A stretch of DNA of 64,000 bases from Bacteroidota bacterium. GTDB taxonomy: Bacteria > Bacteroidota > Bacteroidia > Chitinophagales > Chitinophagaceae. Positions 32,575 to 61,965 of this stretch are shown in pieces. The position numbers and the translations under genes are program-made. The stretch spans positions 1 through 64,000 of the forward strand of contig JAUZNZ010000003.1 of NCBI GenBank assembly GCA_030706735.1. Reading direction: 5' to 3'. How positions within the stretch are numbered: the stretch's first letter is position 1; every line of letters begins with the position of its first letter. The notes under the pieces are model-generated. The model was given only the letters and a program-made list of their open reading frames with translations, had not been told where the DNA came from and ran no database searches.

Positions 32575-33125
32575 AGCCCTTTTACAACTGGCGCCACATC
32601 TATGTGAGTGAAGAGGACGAGCGATCGCCCTTTTATGGCCGGGCCTATTCCGAATTCGTCTTTTCTCAAACCATCTACAATTATTACATCCATCCGCAAT
32701 GGGACGAGTTCGGATCCCGTACCCTGTATATGAAGGTGCTGCTGGCGGATTACGACGAACATTATGTGGTAATTGAGCTGTTCGGCGAATGGAATGATGC
32801 CATCGAGAACGATATTATGAATATGAAACGCGAGGTGATCGATAAGTTCTTTCAATTCGGCATCATCAAATTCATCCTCATTGCAGAGAACGTGCTGAAC
32901 TTCCACAGCGGGGATAAAGATTACTATGAAGAATGGTTCGAAGAAGTGACGGACGAAGGCGGATGGATCGCGTGTATCAATATGCCCGAGCAAACCCAAT
33001 ACGACTTCCGCAAGGCGAAACTGAACCGGTTCATCGAGCTTATCGAATTGGAGAACTGGCGCGTCTACAAACCCTTCCATCTTTTCAAGCTGATAGACGG
33101 GCAGATCATGCAACGGCTGTCCTGA
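32562..33125 (+). CDS. Conserved-looking hypothetical protein, murQ operon
   Basis: The 187-residue protein is soluble, rich in aromatic and acidic residues (EPFYNWRHIYVSEEDERSPF, FVFSQTIYNYYIHPQWDEFG) and ends KPFHLFKLIDGQIMQR. There is no signal peptide or membrane segment and I do not recognise the fold. It starts inside the last codons of murQ (13-bp overlap), so it is translationally coupled to the recycling pair, but the link may be only positional. It is the last gene before the aromatic operon leader. Confidence 0.75.
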   Translation: MHEIEPFYNWRHIYVSEEDERSPFYGRAYSEFVFSQTIYNYYIHPQWDEFGSRTLYMKVLLADYDEHYVVIELFGEWNDAIENDIMNMKREVIDKFFQFGIIKFILIAENVLNFHSGDKDYYEEWFEEVTDEGGWIACINMPEQTQYDFRKAKLNRFIELIELENWRVYKPFHLFKLIDGQIMQRLS

Positions 33126-33157
33126 AAAATTTATTTTATTTTTCCGGATAAGTCTGT

Positions 33158-33165
33158 AAATTTGG
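33158..33165 (+). promoter_or_regulatory. -7 promoter element of the aromatic operon leader
   Basis: TAAATTTG fits TAnnTTTG and ends exactly 10 bases before the leader-peptide ATG, predicting a 5' leader of only a few bases. TTT is found at the -33 position with 19-bp spacing. Confidence 0.6.
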
Positions 33166-33175
33166 TGCGTTATTA

Positions 33176-33265
33176 TGAACAACACGAGGGCATACCGGTT
33201 TTTTAGCTTTTATTATTTCTACTTTACCAGCAGACCGGGAATGCTTTTGTTAAGAAGTAACTGAA
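33176..33265 (+). CDS. Phe/Tyr-rich leader peptide of the aromatic operon attenuator
   Basis: A 29-codon open frame, too short for routine gene calling, contains RFFSFYYFYF: eight aromatic residues in nine consecutive codons (33200-33226), plus one earlier Tyr at 33194. It lies between a promoter element and a terminator hairpin that precedes pheA. Such codon runs make ribosomes stall when charged Phe- or Tyr-tRNA is scarce. The peptide itself probably has no other job. The codon run, position and RNA structures together make the call strong, though expression is not shown. Confidence 0.85.
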
Positions 33266-33320
33266 TAACCAGAAAATTAACATAAAGAGTCCCGGTCAAA
33301 AGCCGGGACTTTTGCTTTTA
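33195..33320 (+). promoter_or_regulatory. Transcription attenuator controlling the Phe/Tyr operon
   Basis: Four segments can pair in alternative ways. Segment 1 is CCGGT at 33196-33200, inside the leader gene. Segment 2 is GACCGGGA at 33234-33241. Segment 3 is TCCCGGTC at 33291-33298. Segment 4 is CCGGGACT at 33304-33311. 1:2 is a protector, 2:3 is an 8-bp antiterminator, and 3:4 is the terminator. A ribosome stalled on the early aromatic codons covers segment 1 and frees segment 2, which captures segment 3; a ribosome running to the stop at 33263 allows the terminator. The operon downstream makes Phe and Tyr. Confidence 0.8.
33289..33320 (+). terminator. Attenuator terminator upstream of pheA
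   Basis: An 8-bp GC-rich stem (AGTCCCGG with CCGGGACT), extendable by A-U and G-U pairs at its base, is followed by TTTTGCTTTT. It lies 67 bp before the pheA start and is mutually exclusive with the antiterminator. Confidence 0.8.
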
Positions 33321-33387
33321 GCCCCCTTCACGGTCGCCGGTGCGGCGCGGTCGCAGGCGAGGAGGCAGTCGCACGAAAAAAGGAATT

Positions 33388-34218
33388 ATGGCAAGGATAA
33401 GCATACAAGGATACGAAGGCAGCTTCCACCAGGTGGCTGCACAGGAATTCTTCGGCAAGGACGTCGAAGTGATCACCTGTTCGACGTTTCGGGAAGTGGT
33501 GCGGGTGGCTTCCAGTAAAAAGGAGAGCGACGGCGGCATCATGGCGATTGAAAACTCCATCGCGGGGAGCATCCTGCCGAATTACAACCTGCTGCAAAAG
33601 AGCGACCTGCGGATCGTGGGCGAGATCTACCTGCAGATCGGCCAGAACCTGCTGGTCAATCCCGGAGTGAAGCTGGAAGATATCCGGGAGGTCCATTCAC
33701 ACCATATGGCACTGCTCCAGTGCATCGACTTCCTCGAAAAACATCCGCATTGGAAGTTGGTCGAGACCGAAGACACCGCCCTCAGCGCAAAACATCTGCA
33801 CCAGCACCGAAGCAAGCATGTGGCGGCCATCGCCAGCCGGCTGGCCGCAGAATTATTCGGACTGAACGTGCTCGCCCCGGATATACAGACGATGAAGAAT
33901 AATTATACCCGTTTTTTGGTCTTGCAAAGAGAAGCGACGGCTGTCCCGGATGAAAGCGCGGACAAGGCTTCGGTCAATTTCCATACCGATCATTCCCGGG
34001 GAAGCCTGGCCAGGGTATTGACCAGGATCGCGGAAGGAGGCATCAACCTCAGCAAATTGCAATCCTTCCCCATCCCGGGCAGCGACTGGGAATATTCCTT
34101 CCATGCGGACATGGAATTCGATTCCCTGGAACAGTTCCACCGGGTGATCGGATCGATCGGGCCGATCACGGCGGAGTTGAAGGTATACGGTATCTATAAA
34201 AAAGGCAAAACAGTATGA
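33388..34218 (+). CDS. pheA: Prephenate dehydratase with ACT domain
   Basis: From the ATG at 33388 (preceded by AAAGGA) the product is 276 residues starting MARISIQGYEGSFHQVAA. Residues 1-180 form the catalytic domain, with GIMAIENSIAGSI and the conserved NNYTRFLVL motif containing the catalytic Thr. Residues about 195-275 form an ACT domain (GSLARVLTRIAEGGINLSKL) that binds Phe for feedback inhibition. There is no fused chorismate mutase; that activity is on the DAHP synthase downstream. It converts prephenate to phenylpyruvate. It overlaps the next gene by 4 bp. Confidence 0.94.
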   Translation: MARISIQGYEGSFHQVAAQEFFGKDVEVITCSTFREVVRVASSKKESDGGIMAIENSIAGSILPNYNLLQKSDLRIVGEIYLQIGQNLLVNPGVKLEDIREVHSHHMALLQCIDFLEKHPHWKLVETEDTALSAKHLHQHRSKHVAAIASRLAAELFGLNVLAPDIQTMKNNYTRFLVLQREATAVPDESADKASVNFHTDHSRGSLARVLTRIAEGGINLSKLQSFPIPGSDWEYSFHADMEFDSLEQFHRVIGSIGPITAELKVYGIYKKGKTV

Positions 34219-35390
34219 AGACAGCTACACGTCTTGAAGGCATCGGCGAATATTATTTCTCGCAAAAGCTGCGGGAGATCGACGGCCTGAACAAACAAGG
34301 CAAGAATATCATCAACCTGGGCATCGGCAGCCCGGACCTTCCCCCTCATCCCGAGGTGATCCGGACCCTTCAGGAGGAGAGCGCGAAACCCAACGTGCAC
34401 GCCTATCAGTCCTATAAAGGATCCCCCGTGCTGCGCAAGTCGATCGCCGAATGGTATGCCCGCTGGTACGGGGTCGGACTGGATCCCGAATCGGAGATCC
34501 TGCCCCTGATCGGCTCCAAGGAGGGCATCATGCATATTTGCATGACCTATCTCGATCAGGGAGATAAAGTCCTCGTGCCGAACCCCGGCTATCCCACCTA
34601 CCGCAGCGCGGTGAAGCTGGCCGGCGGGATTTGCGTAGACTATGAACTGAAGGAGGAGAACCGCTGGTATCCGGACATGCAGGAACTGGAGCGCCAGGCG
34701 TCCGCCGGCGGGATCAGGTTGATGTGGGTCAATTACCCGCATATGCCTACGGGACAACTCCCGGATAGGGCCCTTTTCGAACAGTTGGTGGCATTCGGCA
34801 AACGTCATCAGATCCTGATCTGCCATGACAACCCGTACAGCTTTATATTGAACGAAGAGCCGATGAGTCTCCTTTCGGTACCCGGCAGCAGGGAGGTCGT
34901 GGTGGAATTGAATTCATTGAGCAAATCGCAAAATATGGCGGGATGGCGGGTAGGCGTCCTGACGGGAGCGAAGGATCGGATCGACGAGGTACTGCGGTTC
35001 AAAAGCAATATGGACAGCGGCATGTTCCTGCCCATTCAACTGGCCGCGGCGAAGGCCCTTTCCCTTGACAAGGACTGGTATGACGGTGTGAATGCGGTCT
35101 ATCGCCGGCGCCGCACAAAGGTCTTCGAGTTGTTGCAGTTATTGGGTTGTCCTTTCAACGAGGGTCAGGCCGGCATGTTCGTCTGGGCAAAAGTGCCTCC
35201 CGGTTCGGGCAACGGTTTTGACCTGAGCGACAGGGTACTCTACGAGGCGGATGTTTTTATTACCCCCGGCGGCATCTTCGGATCGGCCGGTGACGGATAT
35301 ATCCGGGTGAGCCTCTGCAGCCCGGAGGAAAAATTGCAGGAGGGCATCGACCGCATACGACAAAAAATAAAAACCCGTATTCATGTTTGA
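34215..35390 (+). CDS. Class I/II PLP aminotransferase, probably aromatic amino-acid aminotransferase
   Basis: A 391-residue fold-type I aminotransferase. It shows the N-terminal LGIGSPDLPPHP, YQSYKGSPVLRKSIAEWY, PNPGYPTY, NYPHMPTGQ (173-181), the HDNPYS aspartate/tyrosine pair, the PLP lysine K237 in SLSKSQNMAGWRVG, and a C-terminal arginine in YIRVSLC. The family also includes LL-diaminopimelate aminotransferases, which it resembles. Its place between pheA and tyrA, with overlaps at both ends, says it transaminates phenylpyruvate and hydroxyphenylpyruvate. Confidence 0.87.
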   Translation: MKTATRLEGIGEYYFSQKLREIDGLNKQGKNIINLGIGSPDLPPHPEVIRTLQEESAKPNVHAYQSYKGSPVLRKSIAEWYARWYGVGLDPESEILPLIGSKEGIMHICMTYLDQGDKVLVPNPGYPTYRSAVKLAGGICVDYELKEENRWYPDMQELERQASAGGIRLMWVNYPHMPTGQLPDRALFEQLVAFGKRHQILICHDNPYSFILNEEPMSLLSVPGSREVVVELNSLSKSQNMAGWRVGVLTGAKDRIDEVLRFKSNMDSGMFLPIQLAAAKALSLDKDWYDGVNAVYRRRRTKVFELLQLLGCPFNEGQAGMFVWAKVPPGSGNGFDLSDRVLYEADVFITPGGIFGSAGDGYIRVSLCSPEEKLQEGIDRIRQKIKTRIHV

Positions 35391-36231
35391 CACGATGACG
35401 ATCGTTGGAGTAGGCCTGATCAGCGGCAGCTTTAGCCTCGCATTAAAGGAGCGCGGACTCGTCCGCCATGTGATCGGCGTAAGCCGCACGGCCGCCAGCA
35501 TCGGGAAAGCGCTGGAATTGGGATTGATCGACGAGGCGCTGCCACTGGATGCCGCTGTGGATAAGAGCGACCTGGTCTATGTGGCCATCCCCGTCGATGC
35601 GACGGTCCCGGTTATGCAACAGATCATGGACCGTGTCACCGCCAGACAGATCGTGGCCGACGCCGGATCCACCAAGCACGTGTTGTGCGAGTCGCTGGCC
35701 GGCCATCCGATGCGTAGCCGTTTCGTAGCGACCCACCCGATGTGGGGGACCGAATACAGCGGTCCGGAAGCCGCCGTAAGGGGCGCCTTCGCCGGTCGCG
35801 CCTGCGTGATCTGCGAAAAAGAGAAAAGCGACGCCGGTGCGGTCGCCATCATGGAGGGGATCTACAAGCAGTTGGGCATGCACATCGTGTATATGGACGC
35901 CCACAGTCATGATATGCATGCTGCCTATATCAGCCATATCTCCCACATCACTTCCTTTGCCCTGGCCAATACCGTCCTGGAAAAGGAAAAGGAGGAGAAT
36001 ACGATCTTCGAACTCGCCGGCGGCGGTTTCGAAAGTACCGTCAGATTGGCAAAGAGCAATCCGGCGATGTGGCTGCCTATCTTCAAGCAGAACCGGGACC
36101 ACGTGTTGGATGTCCTCAACGAGCATATCGCCCAGCTGAGGAAGTTCAAAAGCTGCCTGGAGAAGGAGAATTATGACTACTTGCGGGAACTGATGGAACA
36201 CGCAAATGAGATCAGCAGGATATTGAAATAG
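35383..36231 (+). CDS. tyrA: Prephenate dehydrogenase
   Basis: The 282-residue enzyme makes 4-hydroxyphenylpyruvate, the tyrosine precursor. It starts with the Rossmann motif VGVGLISGSFSLAL (8-21), followed by the conserved ATHPMWGTEYSGPEAA around the active-site His. The C-terminal helical dimer domain is intact (HISHITSFALAN with its catalytic His, then AGGGFESTVRLA). No ACT domain is attached. It overlaps the aminotransferase by 8 bp and is the third gene of the tightly packed first block of the operon. Confidence 0.92.
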   Translation: MFDTMTIVGVGLISGSFSLALKERGLVRHVIGVSRTAASIGKALELGLIDEALPLDAAVDKSDLVYVAIPVDATVPVMQQIMDRVTARQIVADAGSTKHVLCESLAGHPMRSRFVATHPMWGTEYSGPEAAVRGAFAGRACVICEKEKSDAGAVAIMEGIYKQLGMHIVYMDAHSHDMHAAYISHISHITSFALANTVLEKEKEENTIFELAGGGFESTVRLAKSNPAMWLPIFKQNRDHVLDVLNEHIAQLRKFKSCLEKENYDYLRELMEHANEISRILK

Positions 36232-36251: not shown

Positions 36252-36259
36252 TACCTTTG
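36252..36259 (+). promoter_or_regulatory. Internal -7 promoter element before the DEAD-box gene
   Basis: TACCTTTG, 19 bp before the helicase start, in the first gap over 40 bp in the operon. It may give the second half of the cluster transcription independent of the attenuator. Confidence 0.5.
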
Positions 36260-36278: not shown

Positions 36279-37961
36279 ATGACGACATTCGAAGGGTTGG
36301 GTTTAGACGCCAGGCTGGTACAGGCAACGGACGCCCTGGGATATAAGACGCCAACCCCCATACAGGAGCAGGCAATCCCGGTATTGCTCAGCGGGACCAA
36401 GGATCTGGTCGGACTGGCCCAAACCGGGACCGGCAAGACGGCTGCATTCGGTCTGCCGCTCCTCCAATTGATCGACAGTGACCTGAAATATCCCCAGGCC
36501 CTGGTGGTATGCCCGACACGGGAATTGTGCCTGCAGATCGTAGGCGAGGTGGAACTATTTAAGAAATTCATGCCCGGCATGCACGTGGTCGCCGTCTACG
36601 GAGGCACTTCCATCGGGCTGCAGATACGGGATATCCGTAGGGGGGTGCAGATCGTGGTCGCCACGCCGGGACGCCTGATCGACCTCATCGAACGCAAGGC
36701 CATCGACCTCGGGCAAATAAAATACGTCGTGCTGGATGAGGCGGACGAGATGCTGAACATGGGATTCCAGGACGATATCGAATTCATCCTCCAAAATACG
36801 CCGCAACGCGGAGCGACCTGGCTTTTCAGCGCCACGATGCCGCCGGAAATACGCCGGGTGAGCAAGAAGTACATGCAGCAGCCCACGGAGATCACAGTGG
36901 GCAAGATGAATACGGCCAACAAGAATGTAGATCACCAATACTATGTTGCATCGGCGCACCACCGGTATGAAACCCTGAAACGGATCATCGATTTCAATCC
37001 CGGCATTTATGGGATCATCTTCACCAGGACCAAGGCCGATGCGCAGAACATTGCTGAAAAGCTGACCCGCGAGGGATATGATATCGACGCCCTCCACGGG
37101 GACCTGACCCAACAGCAGCGCGACAAAGTTATGGGTGAGTTCCGGGAAAAAACGCTGCAATTGCTGATCGCCACCGACGTGGCGGCCCGCGGGATCGACG
37201 TGCAGGGGATCACGCACGTCATCAATTATGAGCTGCCCGACGACGTGGAGGTCTATACCCACCGAAGCGGACGTACGGGCCGTGCCGGGAATACGGGCAT
37301 CTGCCTGTCGATCGTTCACAGCCGTGAGATCGGCAAGTTGAAACTGATCGAAAGGATGGTGCAGGTCCCCTTCCACAAGCTCGAGATACCGGGCGGCAAG
37401 GATGTGTGCAGGAAGCAGTTCTTTCATTTCATGGATAAATTGTTACAGGCGGACATCAGCCATGGCAATTACGAATCCTATGTGCCGATGCTGGCCGAAA
37501 AATTTGCGGAGGTTAGCAAGGAGGAAGTCTTGAAGCGGGTGGCGGCGATGGAATTCGACCGTTTTCTGAAATATTATGAGAATGCCGAGGACCTCAACGT
37601 CCGCGAGCGGGTCCGGGAATACGGACGCGACAGGGAACAAAAAGGAGGCGAACGCAGGGAATTGGGAAGGCGCGAAGCCGTGGACGGCCGGTCAAGGACC
37701 AGGGATTTTAATGGAGGCGGAGATTATGCGAAGTTATTCGTCAATCTCGGGACCAAGGATGGATTCTACAAGGCCAGCTTCCTGCAATTCATTCTCGATA
37801 TGAGCGACCTGAGAAAGGAGGTGTTGGGGCGGATCGATATGAAGGAGATGAATAGCTGGATCGAGATCGACAAACGTTCGGCGCCGCAGATGATCCGCGC
37901 CATCGACGGAAAAAATTATAAAGGCCGGAGGATCAGGATGAACGATGCCAACAGCCGCTAA
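36279..37961 (+). CDS. DEAD-box ATP-dependent RNA helicase (DeaD/DbpA-like)
   Basis: A 560-residue RNA helicase. Motifs in order: Q motif TPTPIQEQAIP, Walker A AQTGTGKT (47-54), DEAD (153-156), SAT (motif III), and HRSGRTGRAG (motif VI). After the core comes a charged basic linker (about 430-475) and a DbpA-type RNA-binding domain at the C terminus (KLFVNLGTKDGFYKASF ... NYKGRRIRM). Such enzymes help ribosome assembly and mRNA folding, especially in the cold. It is unusual to find it in the middle of an aromatic biosynthesis cluster; it has its own promoter element. Confidence 0.93.
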   Translation: MTTFEGLGLDARLVQATDALGYKTPTPIQEQAIPVLLSGTKDLVGLAQTGTGKTAAFGLPLLQLIDSDLKYPQALVVCPTRELCLQIVGEVELFKKFMPGMHVVAVYGGTSIGLQIRDIRRGVQIVVATPGRLIDLIERKAIDLGQIKYVVLDEADEMLNMGFQDDIEFILQNTPQRGATWLFSATMPPEIRRVSKKYMQQPTEITVGKMNTANKNVDHQYYVASAHHRYETLKRIIDFNPGIYGIIFTRTKADAQNIAEKLTREGYDIDALHGDLTQQQRDKVMGEFREKTLQLLIATDVAARGIDVQGITHVINYELPDDVEVYTHRSGRTGRAGNTGICLSIVHSREIGKLKLIERMVQVPFHKLEIPGGKDVCRKQFFHFMDKLLQADISHGNYESYVPMLAEKFAEVSKEEVLKRVAAMEFDRFLKYYENAEDLNVRERVREYGRDREQKGGERRELGRREAVDGRSRTRDFNGGGDYAKLFVNLGTKDGFYKASFLQFILDMSDLRKEVLGRIDMKEMNSWIEIDKRSAPQMIRAIDGKNYKGRRIRMNDANSR

Positions 37962-37993: not shown

Positions 37994-39085
37994 ATGGAAG
38001 CAACCGGGATCAAGAATACAAAGGACAATCTCCAGGCGGTCTGGAATAAGCGGCCCCTGATCATTTCCGGGCCCTGCAGTGCAGAGACCGAAGAGCAGGT
38101 ACTGGAAACCGCAACGCGCCTCGCCAAGACCGGCAAAGTCGATATGGTTCGCGCCGGGATTTGGAAGCCCCGCACGCGCCCGGGGAGTTTCGAGGGCATC
38201 GGGACCAAGGGTTTGCCCTGGCTGCAGCAGGCAAAGAAGCTGACGGGTCTGCCCATTACGGTCGAAGTGGCCACGGGCAAGCAGGTGGAAGACGCCCTGC
38301 ACTTCGGGGTAGACGTATTGTGGATCGGCGCGCGGACCACCGTAAACCCATTCAGTGTACAGGAAGTCGCCGACGCGCTGCGCGGAGTGGATGTACCGGT
38401 GCTGATCAAGAACCCGATCAATCCGGACCTGGAACTATGGACTGGCGCAGTGGAACGGGTAGCCAAGGCAGGGATCCGGCAGATCGGCCTGATCCATCGC
38501 GGCTTCAGCTCCTATGGCAATACCGAATACCGGAATGCGCCTATGTGGCACCTGGCCATTGAAATGAAGCTTCGTAATCCGGACATGATGATGATCAATG
38601 ATCCTTCCCATATCTGCGGTCGCCGGGACATCCTGGCCGATGTCGCCCAGAAAGCGATCGACCTCGACTACGACGGATTGATCATCGAAAGTCATATCGA
38701 TCCCGACAAGGCCTGGAGCGACGCCAAACAGCAGATCACCCCGGAACGCCTCGCCGAAATGCTCGATGGCATCAAATGGCGTCATGAGACGACCACGGCA
38801 AAGGAATTCATTACCGCCCTGGAGAAATTGCGCGAACAGATCAACCATATCGACGATGAGCTCATGCAGTTGCTTGGACAGCGCATGAAGATCGCCGACA
38901 AGATCGGAACCTACAAAAAGGACAATAATATCACCATCCTGCAGACGAACCGTTGGAACACCATATTGGAACGCGCCTTTGTAAAGGGTGAGAAGCTGGG
39001 ACTGAGCAAGGATTTTGTAACGAAATATTATGACGCCGTGCACATGGAATCCATCAATCATCAGAATAAGATCATGAATTCCTAG
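37994..39085 (+). CDS. Bifunctional DAHP synthase / chorismate mutase
   Basis: The 363-residue fusion has an N-terminal DAHP synthase of the KDO8P-synthase-like type (about 15-265: GPCSAETEEQ, VRAGIWKPRTRPGSFEG, IGARTTVNPF, NDPSHICGRRD, DGLIIESHIDPDKAWSDA) and a C-terminal AroQ-type chorismate mutase (about 275-355: LREQINHIDDELMQLLGQRM). The first enzyme opens the shikimate pathway; the mutase supplies prephenate to PheA and TyrA, which lack their own mutase. In such fusions the mutase domain can also act as the Phe/Tyr-sensitive regulator of the synthase. It precedes aroB by 12 bp. Confidence 0.94.
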   Translation: MEATGIKNTKDNLQAVWNKRPLIISGPCSAETEEQVLETATRLAKTGKVDMVRAGIWKPRTRPGSFEGIGTKGLPWLQQAKKLTGLPITVEVATGKQVEDALHFGVDVLWIGARTTVNPFSVQEVADALRGVDVPVLIKNPINPDLELWTGAVERVAKAGIRQIGLIHRGFSSYGNTEYRNAPMWHLAIEMKLRNPDMMMINDPSHICGRRDILADVAQKAIDLDYDGLIIESHIDPDKAWSDAKQQITPERLAEMLDGIKWRHETTTAKEFITALEKLREQINHIDDELMQLLGQRMKIADKIGTYKKDNNITILQTNRWNTILERAFVKGEKLGLSKDFVTKYYDAVHMESINHQNKIMNS

Positions 39086-39097
39086 GGTGATCAGGAA

Positions 39098-40129
39098 ATG
39101 AACAAAGTACAATATACCTTTTCGGGCAAACCGACGACCTTCTATTTCGATGCAGGACTTTCCTACCTGGAGAAGCTGGTAGAAAAGGGTCGCGCGGTCA
39201 TCATCACCGATGAAAATGTATTCCGCGAGCAGGGTAAGAAATTCGCCGGCTGGAACACGATCGTGATCAGGGCCGGAGAGGAGTTCAAAGTTCAGGCGAC
39301 GGTGGACTCGATCATCGATCAGCTGATTGCCCGCGGAGCGGACCGGAAGACCTGCCTCATTGGGGTCGGCGGCGGCGTGGTGACCGATATCAGCGGATAT
39401 GTGGCGGCAATTTACATGCGGGGGATACCCTTCGGTTTCGTACCCACTTCCTTGCTGGCCATGGTGGATGCATCCGTCGGAGGCAAGAACGGGATCGATG
39501 CGGGGCTGTATAAGAACCTGATCGGTACGATCCGTCAACCGGATTTCCTCTTATACGATACAGCCATGCTGAAGTCACTGCCCAAAGAAGAATGGATCAA
39601 TGGGTTCGCAGAGATCATCAAACATGCGAGTATCCGTGATGCCTCCCTTTTCCGCGCATTGGAAAAGAACTCGCTCCGCACATACCGGCAGGATAAGGCC
39701 ATGCTGCTTCGCCTGATCCGGCGCAATGTGCTGATCAAAGCAACCATCGTCAAAAAGGACGAGTTCGAGCAGGGCGACCGCCGTCTCCTTAATTTTGGAC
39801 ATACGCTCGGACATGCTATTGAAAACCTCTATGAACTGTCGCACGGGCAGGCCATTTCTATCGGGATGGCCGCGGCCTGCATGATCTCCGAGGAGTTGGC
39901 CGGTTTCACCGAAAGCAACAGGGTGATCACCACGCTGAAGAAATACGGGCTGCCCACGCAAGCCGACTTTGATACGCAACAGGTGATGAAAGTCCTCCGG
40001 ATGGACAAGAAGAAGGTCAGGGATGACATGAACTATGTACTGTTGAAAAAGATCGGGCAGGGCGTCGTCAGAGTGATCCCGGTCTCAGAATTGGAAAAGT
40101 TGTTGCAATCCATAATTACAGCGCGCTGA
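39098..40129 (+). CDS. aroB: 3-dehydroquinate synthase
   Basis: A 343-residue NAD- and zinc-dependent enzyme that closes the ring of DAHP. The NAD-binding GVGGGVVTDISGYVAAIYMRG, the substrate loop PTSLLAMVDASVGGKNGID, and the zinc-ligand region GFAEIIKHASI ... NFGHTLGHAIE are conserved. Length is normal. It ends with TGATG shared with the aroA start (1-bp overlap), so both are made from one message. Confidence 0.95.
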   Translation: MNKVQYTFSGKPTTFYFDAGLSYLEKLVEKGRAVIITDENVFREQGKKFAGWNTIVIRAGEEFKVQATVDSIIDQLIARGADRKTCLIGVGGGVVTDISGYVAAIYMRGIPFGFVPTSLLAMVDASVGGKNGIDAGLYKNLIGTIRQPDFLLYDTAMLKSLPKEEWINGFAEIIKHASIRDASLFRALEKNSLRTYRQDKAMLLRLIRRNVLIKATIVKKDEFEQGDRRLLNFGHTLGHAIENLYELSHGQAISIGMAAACMISEELAGFTESNRVITTLKKYGLPTQADFDTQQVMKVLRMDKKKVRDDMNYVLLKKIGQGVVRVIPVSELEKLLQSIITAR

Positions 40130-41466
40130 TGTTAACGCTTATTCAACCATCCGGGATTCATGGAGTCGTACGCGCTCCCCGCTCGAAAAGTTCGATGCAG
40201 CGGGCCTGTGCCGCTGCCTTGCTGAATGCGGGGGAAACGATCATTAACGATCCCGGCTACTCGAATGACGACAAAGCGGCCATTGAACTCATCCGCGCCC
40301 TGGGCGCCAGGGTAACCGGCTCCGGAGACGAGCCCCTGCACGTGATCCCGCCCGCCTCGAAATGGGGTGGCAAACCGCTCTCCGTGAACTGCGGGGAGAG
40401 CGGCCTGGGGATCAGGATGTTCGCACCCATCATGGCCCTAAGCGGGCAGGAGATTACCGTGAACGGCGAAGGCAGTTTGCTAAGCAGGCCGATGGATTTC
40501 TTCGATGAGGTCTTTCCGCAGTTGGGGATCAGGGTCGGTTCGAATAAGGGTAGGCTCCCATTGAAGATCCAGGGCCCCCTTCAGCCAAGGACGATCGACA
40601 TCGACGGATCACTTAGCTCACAGTTTCTTACAGGCCTCCTGTTCGCCTATGCCGGCGCGGAGGCCAGGGACGTCTCCATCAGGGTAAAGGATCTCAAAAG
40701 CAAACCCTATATCGATCTAACCCTGGAGGTCATGGAACATTTCGGTTGGGAGGTAGGCAACCGGGATTATGAGGAATTTTATTTCCCCGGATCTTCGGCA
40801 GCGCATCAGGGATCAACTGGCCGGCGGGCGCCCATTTCCTATACCGTCGAAGGCGATTGGAGCGGGGCGGCTTTCCTGCTCGTGGCCGGCGCCATCGCCG
40901 GACGTATCACGATAGTCGGGCTGGACCCCGATTCAGCGCAGGCGGATAAGGAGATCTTGCAGGCGCTTCGGAGTTGCGGCGCCCGGATGTTGCTGAGGCC
41001 CGATCATATCGAGATCGGCCCGGGCAGCGACCCTTTGCAGGGCTTTCATTTCGACGCGACCGATTGTCCCGACCTGTTCCCGCCCCTGGTTGCGCTTGCC
41101 TCCTACTGCGAAGGGACGAGCGTGATCGAAGGCGTAGGCCGGCTGGCGCATAAAGAGAGCAACCGGGCCCTTACGTTGCAGGAGGAATTTGCTAAAATGG
41201 GCGTGGACATCAGGCTCGAGGGAAACCGGATGCTGGTGAGAGGAGGGGAAGGCCCGGATACGGAGCGGGTCCTGGGAGGGATGGCCGTACATTCCCATCA
41301 TGATCACCGGATCGCGATGGCCTGTGCGGTGGCGGGCCTGCGGGCGGAAAGAGAAACCATGATCGAAGAAGCGCAGGCTATCGATAAATCCTCTCCGGAT
41401 TTTTATACGCATCTGCGCCAGCTGGGGGCCAGGGTGCGGATATGGGGAGAGATCAATCATGAATGA
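40129..41466 (+). CDS. aroA: 3-phosphoshikimate 1-carboxyvinyltransferase (EPSP synthase)
   Basis: The 445-residue enzyme joins PEP to shikimate-3-phosphate. It has the N-terminal substrate motif APRSKSSMQRACAAALL, the LFCGESGLG-equivalent NCGESGLGIRMF, SSQFLTGLLFA, and the C-terminal DHRIAMACAVAG near residue 390. It is coupled to aroB by a 1-bp overlap. It falls in the broad class II-like spread of EPSP synthases by motif variation, but sensitivity to inhibitors cannot be judged here. Confidence 0.94.
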   Translation: MLTLIQPSGIHGVVRAPRSKSSMQRACAAALLNAGETIINDPGYSNDDKAAIELIRALGARVTGSGDEPLHVIPPASKWGGKPLSVNCGESGLGIRMFAPIMALSGQEITVNGEGSLLSRPMDFFDEVFPQLGIRVGSNKGRLPLKIQGPLQPRTIDIDGSLSSQFLTGLLFAYAGAEARDVSIRVKDLKSKPYIDLTLEVMEHFGWEVGNRDYEEFYFPGSSAAHQGSTGRRAPISYTVEGDWSGAAFLLVAGAIAGRITIVGLDPDSAQADKEILQALRSCGARMLLRPDHIEIGPGSDPLQGFHFDATDCPDLFPPLVALASYCEGTSVIEGVGRLAHKESNRALTLQEEFAKMGVDIRLEGNRMLVRGGEGPDTERVLGGMAVHSHHDHRIAMACAVAGLRAERETMIEEAQAIDKSSPDFYTHLRQLGARVRIWGEINHE

Positions 41467-41495: not shown

Positions 41496-42521
41496 ATGAA
41501 CTCATTCGGCCGCTTATTCAGGGTGACCATCTTCGGCGAATCCCATGGGGATAGCGTGGGCGTGAGCATCGATGGATGCCCCGCGGGTCTCCCGTTAAGC
41601 GCGGAAGACCTGCTGCCCGACCTCGAACGGCGTAAAGGCGGCATGCAGAAAGGCACGACGCCTCGCAAAGAGGATGACCTGCCTTTGTTCAAGAGCGGAT
41701 TGTTCAATGGCCATGCCACCGGCGCGCCCATGACGATCCTGTTCGAAAATAACAATACGAGATCGGCCGACTATGAAAAGCAGCGGGCGGTGCCCAGGCC
41801 CGGCCACGCGGATTTTGTGGCCCATAAGAAATTTCGTGGATTCGAAGATTACCGGGGTGGCGGTCATTTTTCCGGCCGCCTGACAGTGGCGCTGGTGGCT
41901 GCGGGAGCGGTGGCGAAAAAGCTGCTGTCAGCCGCAGTGAGCGCGGGTTCGGAACCCGGCGGGATCGCGGTGAGGGCTGCCATAACGGAGATCGGCGGCG
42001 AAAAGGATACGGAGAAGGGACTGCAAAAGGCCATCGAAGCGAAGGATTCGGTAGGTGGCATCGTGGAATGCCGTGTAAGCGGACTGCCTGCCGGCCTCGG
42101 CGAGCCGTTCTTCGACTCGGTGGAATCCGTATTGAGCCATGCTGTGTTCTCCATACCCGCAGTCAGGGCGATCGAATTCGGCACGGGCTTCGCTGCGGCA
42201 TCCATGTTCGGCAGCGACCATAACGACGCCATCGTAAATGACGAAGGGGAGACCCGAACCAATCATGCCGGCGGCGTGGTCGGGGGGATCACCAATGGCA
42301 ACGAGCTCGTTTTCCGGATAGCGATCAAGCCGACTTCATCCACTCCCAGAGAGCAACAGACGCTGAATTGGGAGTCGGGCAAGATCGAGGCATTCTCCGT
42401 AAAGGGCCGTCATGATCTCTGCATCGCTTTGCGGGTGCCCGTGGTGCTCGAGGCCGTTACTGCCATCGTTCTGGCCGATCTTATGCTGCTCGAGCGGCGG
42501 ATCGTCCCGGCCGCCGGATAA
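41496..42521 (+). CDS. aroC: Chorismate synthase
   Basis: The 341-residue FMN-dependent enzyme forms chorismate. Family marks are FGESHGDSVG (13-22, with catalytic H17), RKEDDLPLFKSG, RPGHADFVAHKKF with DYRGGGHFSGR and a late GRHDLCIALRVPVVLEA with the second catalytic His. It is a little shorter than the usual 350-390 residues, mainly in loops. It closes the shikimate block (aroG/Q-aroB-aroA-aroC); aroD, aroE and aroK are elsewhere. Confidence 0.95.
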   Translation: MNSFGRLFRVTIFGESHGDSVGVSIDGCPAGLPLSAEDLLPDLERRKGGMQKGTTPRKEDDLPLFKSGLFNGHATGAPMTILFENNNTRSADYEKQRAVPRPGHADFVAHKKFRGFEDYRGGGHFSGRLTVALVAAGAVAKKLLSAAVSAGSEPGGIAVRAAITEIGGEKDTEKGLQKAIEAKDSVGGIVECRVSGLPAGLGEPFFDSVESVLSHAVFSIPAVRAIEFGTGFAAASMFGSDHNDAIVNDEGETRTNHAGGVVGGITNGNELVFRIAIKPTSSTPREQQTLNWESGKIEAFSVKGRHDLCIALRVPVVLEAVTAIVLADLMLLERRIVPAAG

Positions 42522-60978: not shown

Positions 60979-61032
60979 ATGAATAGTCAGAGACAACATC
61001 ATCACCAGCATTTTTTCTTACCGCAGGGGTAG
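60979..61032 (+). CDS. His-rich leader peptide of the histidine operon
   Basis: A 17-codon frame encodes MNSQRQHHHQHFFLPQG. Four of five consecutive codons are His (60997-61005 and 61009-61011). It lies between the operon promoter and the hisG terminator, as in the classical his leader of enterobacteria. Low His-tRNA charging would stall ribosomes there. It is too short for ordinary ORF calling. Confidence 0.88.
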   Translation: MNSQRQHHHQHFFLPQG

Positions 61033-61102
61033 GCCGGGGATGTTTTGTCAAAACAATAAAACCATTTACAGGGCTTACCGCGAGGTAAGCCCTGATTTTT
61101 TT
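61017..61102 (+). promoter_or_regulatory. Transcription attenuator of the histidine operon
   Basis: Segment 1 CTTACC (61017-61022) can pair with GGTAGG (61028-61033). Segment 2 GGTAGGCC (61028-61035) pairs through 8 positions, one a G-U, with segment 3 GGCTTACC (61072-61079). Segment 3 also forms the terminator with 61084-61094. Stalling on the His codons masks segment 1 and frees segment 2 to block the terminator. Confidence 0.8.
61069..61102 (+). terminator. Attenuator terminator immediately upstream of hisG
   Basis: A perfect 11-bp stem (CAGGGCTTACC with GGTAAGCCCTG) and GCGA loop is followed by A and seven T residues. The T-run ends only 2 bases before the hisG ATG. Confidence 0.88.
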
Positions 61103-61104
61103 AT

Positions 61105-61965
61105 ATGAGTACCAAATTAAAGATAGCGATACAGAAATCCGGCCGCCTGTATGACGATTCGGTCAAGCTGCTGAAGGATTGCGGGATCGGTTTGAAGAAC
61201 GGTGTCAATAAGCTCAAGACGGAGGCCGACAATTTCCCCATGGAGATCTATTTTCTGCGTGACGATGATATTCCGCAGTACGTGGAGGACGCCGTCGCCG
61301 ACATCGGCATCGTGGGCGAGAATGTCTTATTTGAAAAAAACAAGAAAGTGGAAGTCGTGGAAGTTCTCGGCTTCGGAAAGTGCAGGCTCTCGGTTGCCGT
61401 CGGGCGCGGCGAGAACTATGATGGGGTCGGCTATCTGAATGGCAAGCGTATCGCAACGACCTATCCCTCGCTGGTTAGAGAATTTCTGAGAAAAAATAAC
61501 GTGAATGCCGAGATCCATGAGATCAGCGGGTCTGTCGAGATCGCGCCGGGCATCGGTCTGGCCCACGCCATCGTCGACCTGGTGAGCAGCGGCAGCACCT
61601 TGTTCATGAACGGACTGAAGGAGGTGGAAACGGTATTGTCCTCCCAGGCCGTACTGGTGCAAAATCCTGCGCTGGACTCCCCACGACGGATGATCCTGGA
61701 AAAGTTCCTTTTCCGGGTCCGATCCGTAAAAAAGGCCAGGAATAATAAATACATCCTGTTGAATGCGCCCAATGAAAAGTTGTCGGAGATCATTGCCCTG
61801 CTGCCCGGCATGAAGAGCCCGACGGTACTGCCTCTTGCCGAAGCTGGCTGGAGCAGCGTGCACAGTGTCCTGAACGAAGATGATTTCTGGGATATCATCG
61901 AACGCCTGAAGGCGGCCGGTGCGCAGGGAATATTGGTGGTTCCGATAGAAAAAATGGTGATCTGA
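61105..61965 (+). CDS. hisG: ATP phosphoribosyltransferase, long form
   Basis: The 286-residue enzyme catalyses the first step of histidine synthesis, condensing ATP and PRPP. It starts LKIAIQKSGRLYDDS and has ADIGIVGENVLFEKN, the PRPP loop SGSVEIAPGIGLAHAIVDLV and SSGSTLFMNGL. The length shows the homohexameric HisG-long form with a C-terminal regulatory domain (about 210-286) where His binds for feedback inhibition. Its TGA shares a base with the hisD ATG. Expression is set by the attenuator upstream. Confidence 0.95.
   Translation: MSTKLKIAIQKSGRLYDDSVKLLKDCGIGLKNGVNKLKTEADNFPMEIYFLRDDDIPQYVEDAVADIGIVGENVLFEKNKKVEVVEVLGFGKCRLSVAVGRGENYDGVGYLNGKRIATTYPSLVREFLRKNNVNAEIHEISGSVEIAPGIGLAHAIVDLVSSGSTLFMNGLKEVETVLSSQAVLVQNPALDSPRRMILEKFLFRVRSVKKARNNKYILLNAPNEKLSEIIALLPGMKSPTVLPLAEAGWSSVHSVLNEDDFWDIIERLKAAGAQGILVVPIEKMVI

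Follow-up and report, generated by a model that had tools for sequence, protein, structure and literature searches.

The aromatic operon and its leader

The 64,000-nucleotide stretch of DNA analysed here (the window), from a Bacteroidota bacterium of the family Chitinophagaceae, carries an operon for aromatic amino acid synthesis whose genes, from pheA to aroC, all lie on the plus strand and no more than 47 nucleotides (nt) apart. Between the end of the upstream gene at 33125 and pheA lies an RNA element composed of a short leader frame, a run of phenylalanine and tyrosine codons, mutually exclusive antiterminator (2:3) and terminator (3:4) helices, and a protector helix (1:2) with weaker support (Table 1). 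Both the cognate codon run and the location at the start of an operon for the synthesis of these amino acids are those of an attenuator. The element is very probably a classical ribosome-mediated transcription attenuator that reads the supply of phenylalanine and tyrosine together.

A first-pass annotation, made from the sequence alone, had placed the 29-codon leader frame at 33176-33265. The frame itself and its eight aromatic codons in nine stand, but its start does not: position 33176 is out of frame and meets a stop codon at once on translation, whereas 33175 translates. The three helices proposed in the same annotation are likewise retained in altered form. The protector is far longer than first described. 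The antiterminator core does form 8 of 8 pairs, with coordinates one base lower, and is extended by a second helix of 10 pairs and one bulge that had been missed. The terminator, also shifted down by one base, consists of 9 pairs including one G-U, and what had been called its T-rich tail is an interrupted U tract. Folding of 33170-33325 gives a z-score of -3.81, a stability reached by none of 200 shuffles. The calculated energies are -22.1 kcal/mol for the antiterminator and -17.5 kcal/mol for the terminator.

Table 1. Features of the aromatic operon, its leader, and a further leader in the window
Feature	Position	Strand	Basis
Bacteroidota -7 promoter box TAAATTTG	33157..33164	+	Sequence; TAnnTTTG recurrent before leaders
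Leader peptide frame MNNTRAYRFFSFYYFYFTSRPGMLLLRSN	33175..33264	+	29 codons; translation
Segment 1, protector 5' arm	33184..33201	+	Folds with 33232-33250; covariation
Control codons FFSFYYFYF (codons 9-17)	33199..33225	+	Translation; last aromatic codon is 17
Segment 2: core GACCGGGA (33233-33240, pairs with 33290-33297) and CTTTTGTTAA (33244-33253, pairs with 33277-33287)	33233..33253	+	Pairing, covariation
Segment 3: TTAACATAAAG (33277-33287) and TCCCGGTC (33290-33297)	33277..33297	+	Pairing, covariation
Terminator hairpin 3:4, 33288-33296 with 33302-33310	33288..33310	+	Fold, covariation
Interrupted U tract TTTTGCTTTT	33310..33319	+	Sequence
pheA, prephenate dehydratase	33388..34218	+	Pfam PDT, E 9.7e-59
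aat, class I/II aminotransferase	34215..35390	+	Pfam, E 4e-57
tyrA, prephenate dehydrogenase	35383..36231	+	Pfam PDH_N, PDH_C
Putative internal promoter box TACCTTTG ahead of the DEAD-box gene	36252..36259	+	Sequence; recurrent in relatives
DEAD-box helicase with DbpA RNA-binding domain, between tyrA and aroG/CM	36279..37961	+	Pfam
aroG/CM, DAHP synthase-chorismate mutase fusion	37994..39085	+	Pfam
aroB	39098..40129	+	Pfam
aroA	40129..41466	+	Pfam
aroC	41496..42521	+	Pfam
His leader MNSQRQHHHQHFFLPQG ahead of hisG, whose profile match begins at 61117	60979-61032		Read by eye

Conservation and covariation of the leader

Conservation was assessed in 227 regions upstream of pheA, of which 30 and 117 came from genomes of the same family (the window's own included) and 80 from named contigs, with Puia, Flavitalea, Niastella, Terrimonas, and Flavihumibacter among the latter. 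The genomes correspond to 147 examined of the 204 in the family with a PheA match, two being omitted because their contigs begin at the gene. A leader was scored when the best forward short frame contained at least six phenylalanine or tyrosine residues in ten. Such a frame precedes pheA in 224 of the 227 family loci; in the reverse-strand control, 9 of 227 reached the threshold and the mode was 4. As the sets overlap, the 224 leader loci were reduced to 158 at 93% likeness and to 100 at 86% likeness. At the other three loci no convincing leader was detected within 2.2-4.1 kb upstream. In one of them (G049), pheA is preceded by a threonine dehydratase-like gene, a name assigned from reading the sequence.

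The aromatic codon run is thus conserved among relatives, as the first-pass annotation had supposed. All 224 leaders contain 3-9 Phe and 2-6 Tyr codons, and Trp occurs in 31 of them. Within the ten-codon runs of the 158 non-redundant leaders, 1520 of 1580 codons have C or T as their last base, a bias as expected if the reading frame matters. Downstream of the run, conservation lies in the RNA: the sequence GCTTTTGT is kept even where gaps of a single base change the frame in which it is read, and FC or LC forms the end of 25 of the 158 leader peptides. This bears on the alternative that the small frame encodes a functional small peptide and that the hairpin is only a spacer or a terminator of the upstream gene. 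The peptide is indeed aromatic and hydrophobic, and a simple terminator scan called the hairpin on the minus strand only and not on the plus strand. Such an explanation is nevertheless highly improbable in view of a peptide end that is not conserved as protein, of a segment 2 that changes together with segment 3, and of the promoter-like box located just before the frame in most leaders.

This box, TAnnTTTG, lies no more than 40 nt ahead of the leader ATG in 136 of the 158 non-redundant family leaders, compared with 8.75 expected from shuffles; a stretch of the same length ahead of the pheA match start contains it in none of the 158 family loci. In 124 of the 136 box-bearing leaders, box and ATG are separated by 4-10 nt. 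The -7 box of Flavobacterium psychrophilum occupies positions -12 to -5 according to PMC9723704, where leaderless mRNAs are also said to constitute 5.5% of those examined. Applied to the 124 family leaders, this position would leave a 5' untranslated region of 0-6 nt. For the window a transcription start around 33169 is predicted, corresponding to an untranslated region of about 6 nt; a clear -33 box was not seen by eye upstream of the window leader. Leaders of other families (see below) carry TAnnTTTG in 23 of 47 cases and mostly at a greater distance (17-32 nt before the ATG in 21 of the 23), so that the near-leaderless start looks like a trait of Chitinophagaceae. For transcription and translation of the leader, both presumed, the sequence shows a promoter box and a constraint on the reading frame.

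Downstream of the leader, the best hairpin reaches a score of at least 16 in 224 of 224 family loci (a score with no shuffle control behind it), and the antiterminator is at least as stable as the terminator in 106 of the 158 non-redundant leaders. An alternative is that the hairpin acts on translation of pheA instead of on transcription, since in 118 of the 224 loci fewer than 40 nt lie between its end and the pheA match start. In the other 106, however, the hairpin is kept at a distance of 40 to 199 nt, and in the window 77 nt separate it from the pheA start codon. At least four T residues follow within 12 bases of the stem in 207 of the 224 loci. A translational mechanism is accordingly improbable, and action on transcription is the preferred reading.

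Covariation was evaluated in an alignment (A1) of 100 leaders less than 86% alike, with 500 shuffles and slid versions of each helix as controls. The terminator 3:4 scores 0.265 versus 0.138 shuffled and at most 0.097 slid, with 95.5% of cells paired and 55 doubly changed cells compared with 15.0 in shuffles. For the antiterminator 2:3 the score is 0.126 versus 0.093 shuffled and at most 0.066 slid; 82.1% of cells are paired and 56 are doubly changed, compared with 24.2 in shuffles. The protector 1:2 scores 0.259 versus 0.191 shuffled and at most 0.171 slid, with 77.9% of cells paired and 42 doubly changed versus 19.1. For each of the three helices, the count of doubly changed cells was matched by none of the 500 shuffles, and the covariation of segments 2, 3, and 4 that the first-pass annotation had proposed as a test in relatives is present. 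Since shuffles ignore relatedness, segments 2 and 3 were additionally examined at variant loci. The segment 3 core CCCGG is lost in 13 of the 158 loci. Of these, 12 have segments 2 and 3 that match each other better than either matches its consensus partner, in a comparison that favours own pairs because the consensus strings are shorter than the loci's own. Examples of compensated variants are GGATCGGGT/ACCCGATCT and GCCAGGATT/AATCCTGGC. Across all 158 loci the mean segment 2/3 pairing amounts to 20.6 for own, 18.6 for swapped, and 11.4 for shuffled segment 2, and 73% of the loci surpass the 99th percentile of shuffles.

Outside Chitinophagaceae, a class-wide search returned 84 matches, of which 64 loci were examined and 20 omitted as lower-scoring, partial, or located at contig ends. 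An aromatic leader is found at 47 of the 64 pheA loci, in 12 of 18 families; in the reverse-strand control, five Phe or Tyr residues were reached in 3 of 64 loci and six in 1 of 64. Six leaders with only five Phe or Tyr in eight residues (five from family f53, one from f39) were counted because of their hairpins and family. A hairpin scoring at least 16 follows 44 of the 47 leaders, the exceptions being L236, L271, and L283. Segment 2 pairs with segment 3 at a z-score of at least 3 against shuffles in 31 of the 47, as in TGAAGCGGGA/TCCCGCTTCA, AGCGAGGCTTT/AAAGCCTCGTT, and ATGAGAACTTC/GGAGTTCTCAT, and not significantly in 16. At three loci of family f16 (L333, L334, and L350) the leader is absent from pheA and precedes aroG/CM-aroB-aroA instead; it has thus stayed at the front of the aromatic operon through gene rearrangement and is not tied to pheA as such. 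Among the 17 of 64 loci scored as leaderless, two of family f17 contain a short frame starting with MKLTQTYFWFYP that falls below the cut-off and is followed by a hairpin recognized by eye. For six genomes (G295, G357, G304, G501, G316, and G529) longer upstream stretches held nothing convincing, five Phe or Tyr in eight residues being the best. Family f13, with a leader in none of 7 loci, seems to lack it. The remaining loci scored as leaderless, five of f13 and one of f16, were judged on the first scan alone.

A covariance model of the leader (R1) matched 26 places in 24 of 148 genomes of the phylum, 21 at pheA, two before aroG, two before an aspartokinase-like gene, and one (G031) where no leader was seen; some of the genomes matched at pheA had contributed sequences to the building of R1. 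Of the places at pheA, two belong to other classes of the phylum. The match in G031 was dropped, as was one at L301 in the window's own genome (E 0.05), where no leader was seen either. By way of this aromatic model, a Thr/Ile leader, MIFNTSIITTIIITTG, was encountered before an aspartokinase-like gene at L331 and L332 of family f39.

The genes behind the leader are similarly conserved. The names pheA, aminotransferase, and tyrA given in the first-pass annotation are confirmed by Pfam, and the order pheA-aat-tyrA followed by aroG/CM occurs in 20 of 20 relatives sampled. The genes aroB-aroA-aroC come next in 19 of the 20 and, for L317, do not fall within the stretch covered. The DEAD-box gene is present in 12 of the 20 and absent from 8. 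Of the 12 relatives having the gene, 11 show a TAnnTTTG box a short distance ahead of it, and 4 of the 8 without it carry one between tyrA and aroG. The suggestion that the leader might also control the shikimate genes is thus favoured by the preserved gene order and weakened by internal promoter-like boxes. The leader is predicted to govern pheA-aat-tyrA directly; owing to the internal boxes, its share in the expression of the aro genes is less certain, but likely, and perhaps supplemented from within the operon.

Ribosome position and the proposed switch

To follow the switch, the window RNA was folded with a ribosome footprint masked, either with a nascent end at 33300 or at full length. 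In the RNA ending at 33300, the probability of 2:3 is 0.82-0.96 for A-site codons 6-16, falls to 0.41 at codon 17, and is at most 0.07 for codons 18-27. Across the 154 of 158 family loci in which a helix was found, segment 2 begins 5-12 nt (median 8) after the last aromatic codon. As modelled, this placement of the control codons is the spacing required by classical attenuation. In the absence of a ribosome, the protector 1:2 forms in RNAs ending at 33270 and 33288.

The following sequence of events is proposed. Transcription would start just before the leader ATG, with a ribosome trailing RNA polymerase. A shortage of charged tRNA-Phe or tRNA-Tyr would make the ribosome halt within the FFSFYYFYF run. 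An early stall would cover segment 1, leaving segment 2 free to pair with segment 3, and polymerase would read through into pheA-aminotransferase-tyrA and probably into the aro genes. When both amino acids are plentiful, the ribosome would pass codon 17 and either sit on segment 2 or leave, so that 1:2 could form. With segment 2 occupied in either manner, the 3:4 terminator would fold and transcription would stop near 33320.

Sensing of both amino acids by one leader, as claimed in the first-pass annotation, accords with the presence of at least three Phe and two Tyr codons in 224 of 224 family leaders. It may be asked whether the attenuator senses essentially phenylalanine alone. Tyr codons might be tolerated because TTY and TAY differ by a single base and because only early codons matter. 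Phe codons outnumber Tyr codons in the 158 runs (819 versus 547), and when the full-length RNA is masked, an A site at codon 14 or later frees segment 1 and lets 1:2 re-form, which leaves F9, F10, F12, and Y13 as the codons of cleanest effect. Against this stand the absence of any leader with fewer than two Tyr codons among the 224, the persistence of the mixture in other families (2-6 Tyr codons in each of 47 leaders), and the occurrence of both pheA and tyrA in the operon. Sensing of phenylalanine alone is therefore unlikely, if less so than the two alternatives discussed above, and a response to either amino acid is preferred.

Several observations weigh against the attenuator as proposed. 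At equilibrium, the full-length RNA favours 3:4 at every ribosome position from codon 6 to codon 30, which means that switching has to be kinetic. In nascent RNA ending at 33300 and free of ribosomes, 2:3 is preferred over 1:2, and the off state would consequently require 1:2 to form first and to persist until segment 4 has been made. The same nascent RNA also favours 2:3, at 0.95-0.98, when the A site is at codons 28-30. The U tract of the window is interrupted. Among the helices, 1:2 has the lowest proportion of paired cells, its last pair fails in 47 of 100 leaders, and sliding it by +3 yields 50 doubly changed cells versus 42 in place. For 2:3 the number of pair types does not rise above shuffles, 152 of 500 of which reach the count. 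At the variant loci, L221 has an altered segment 3 core without compensation, and the 12 compensating loci span 8 genera, with L216 using a different helix, which reduces them to perhaps 7 independent events. The shorter consensus strings in that test and the closeness of own and swapped pairing means belong here too, as do the three family loci without a convincing leader and 14 of the 64 loci of other families, where such a leader is missing even if the three rearranged f16 loci are counted as found.

Related leaders and known systems

Four further putative leaders were noted in the genome of the window. The His leader in the window is followed by a hairpin, AGGGCTTACC/GGTAAGCCCT, at 61070-61093, and GGTAGGCC could possibly pair with GGCTTACC as an antiterminator, both read by eye; leader and hairpin together make a candidate for a second attenuator in the window. 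A Trp leader, MKHELINKLWWWHANSVRGK (L327, 1294-1356), precedes trpE, with the hairpin GGCCCCGAC/GTCGGGGCC next to it. An Ile/Val leader, MSKSSLYTIITKVSAIAVIIVVVIIIPAFPGGGW, containing IIVVVIII (L300, around 1500-1666 on the minus strand; G000:C7:84057-84156), sits between leuB-like and ilvE-like genes and is followed by a strong terminator-like hairpin. A Cys leader, MNQAFSNSTCCCCCCRQGMVILVEDDLL, containing CCCCCC (L299, around 1500-1650 on the minus strand; G000:C13:62550-62698), lies before a cysteine synthase-like gene. It is accompanied by the hairpin AGCTCCAC/GTGGGGCT and by GGTGGAG as a possible segment 2, and represents a putative attenuator for cysteine in Bacteroidota. The two genes were named ilvE-like and cysteine synthase-like from reading the sequences. 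At the trp, cys, ilv, and his loci no Rfam match exceeded the gathering score, and a weak sub-threshold GcvB match fell on the Cys leader.

Rfam yielded no match at the gathering score anywhere in the window; at E values up to 10, the region 33100-33400 returned only seven unrelated families, all below their gathering scores. Assignment to the Rfam leader families (Phe_leader and others) was rejected as no covariance model matched, and a T-box riboswitch was likewise rejected, with no covariance model match in the window. No description of a mixed Phe/Tyr leader was found in the open-licence literature, which was searched mostly at listing level. A survey by Lopatovskaya et al. 2010, by its title devoted to attenuation of bacterial amino acid operons, may already include Bacteroidetes pheA leaders.

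For the phylum itself, PMC9723704 describes strong clues that amino acid operons of F. psychrophilum are preceded by leader-peptide attenuators, a 5' element upstream of pheA conserved in Flavobacteriaceae, and new elements without Rfam hits. That element shares phylum and gene with the one studied here, but the section describing it gives no leader sequence, amino acid specificity, segments, or covariation. The description of mixed sensing in Bacteroidota as little known is thus fair, if not to be taken as undescribed. Leader-like small frames are mentioned in Bacteroides thetaiotaomicron in PMC7366714, and the Bacteroid-trp RNA motif (RF01692) is listed as a probable cis-regulatory RNA of Bacteroidetes in PMC2864571. 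RF01692 gave no match in the window, nor in the trp locus L327 at E values up to 1.

Leader-peptide attenuation needs close coupling of translation and transcription. Translation initiation in the phylum relies on sequence properties other than Shine-Dalgarno according to PMC9723704, so that a conserved attenuator is a natural probe of coupling, and the near-leaderless start in Chitinophagaceae sharpens the question of initiation. Moreover, the leader would constitute a ready-made Phe/Tyr sensor for Bacteroidota, and R1 finds such leaders in other families. A wider proposal, plausible but put forward tentatively, is that of a phylum-wide OR gate for phenylalanine and tyrosine. A leader device that drifts freely in sequence and retains its codon mix and three-way switch may be what chiefly controls aromatic amino acid synthesis in Bacteroidota. 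In Chitinophagaceae, with a frame at most about 6 nt from the RNA end, the ribosome may be coupled from the first nucleotides without an upstream binding site. Together with the His, Trp, Ile/Val, and Cys leaders, attenuation may thus be a general mode of amino acid control in the lineage.

With respect to known systems, the enterobacterial phe, trp, his, ilv, and thr leaders share the frame of cognate codons, the 1:2/2:3/3:4 logic, and a terminator before the first structural gene. The pheA leader of Escherichia coli is specific for phenylalanine, whereas Phe and Tyr codons are mixed here. In contrast to the enterobacterial examples, the operon spans both branches as well as the common pathway, and in most family leaders the frame is predicted to begin 0-6 nt from the RNA end. 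The polycysteine frames of mycobacteria similarly use a leaderless frame as a ribosome-read gauge of an amino acid; they concern another amino acid in another phylum and are relevant to the Cys leader of this genome. While the type of device is textbook, what is new is the mixture of Phe and Tyr codons, the breadth of the system, the probable near-leaderless start, and the presence of similar putative leaders in the same genome.

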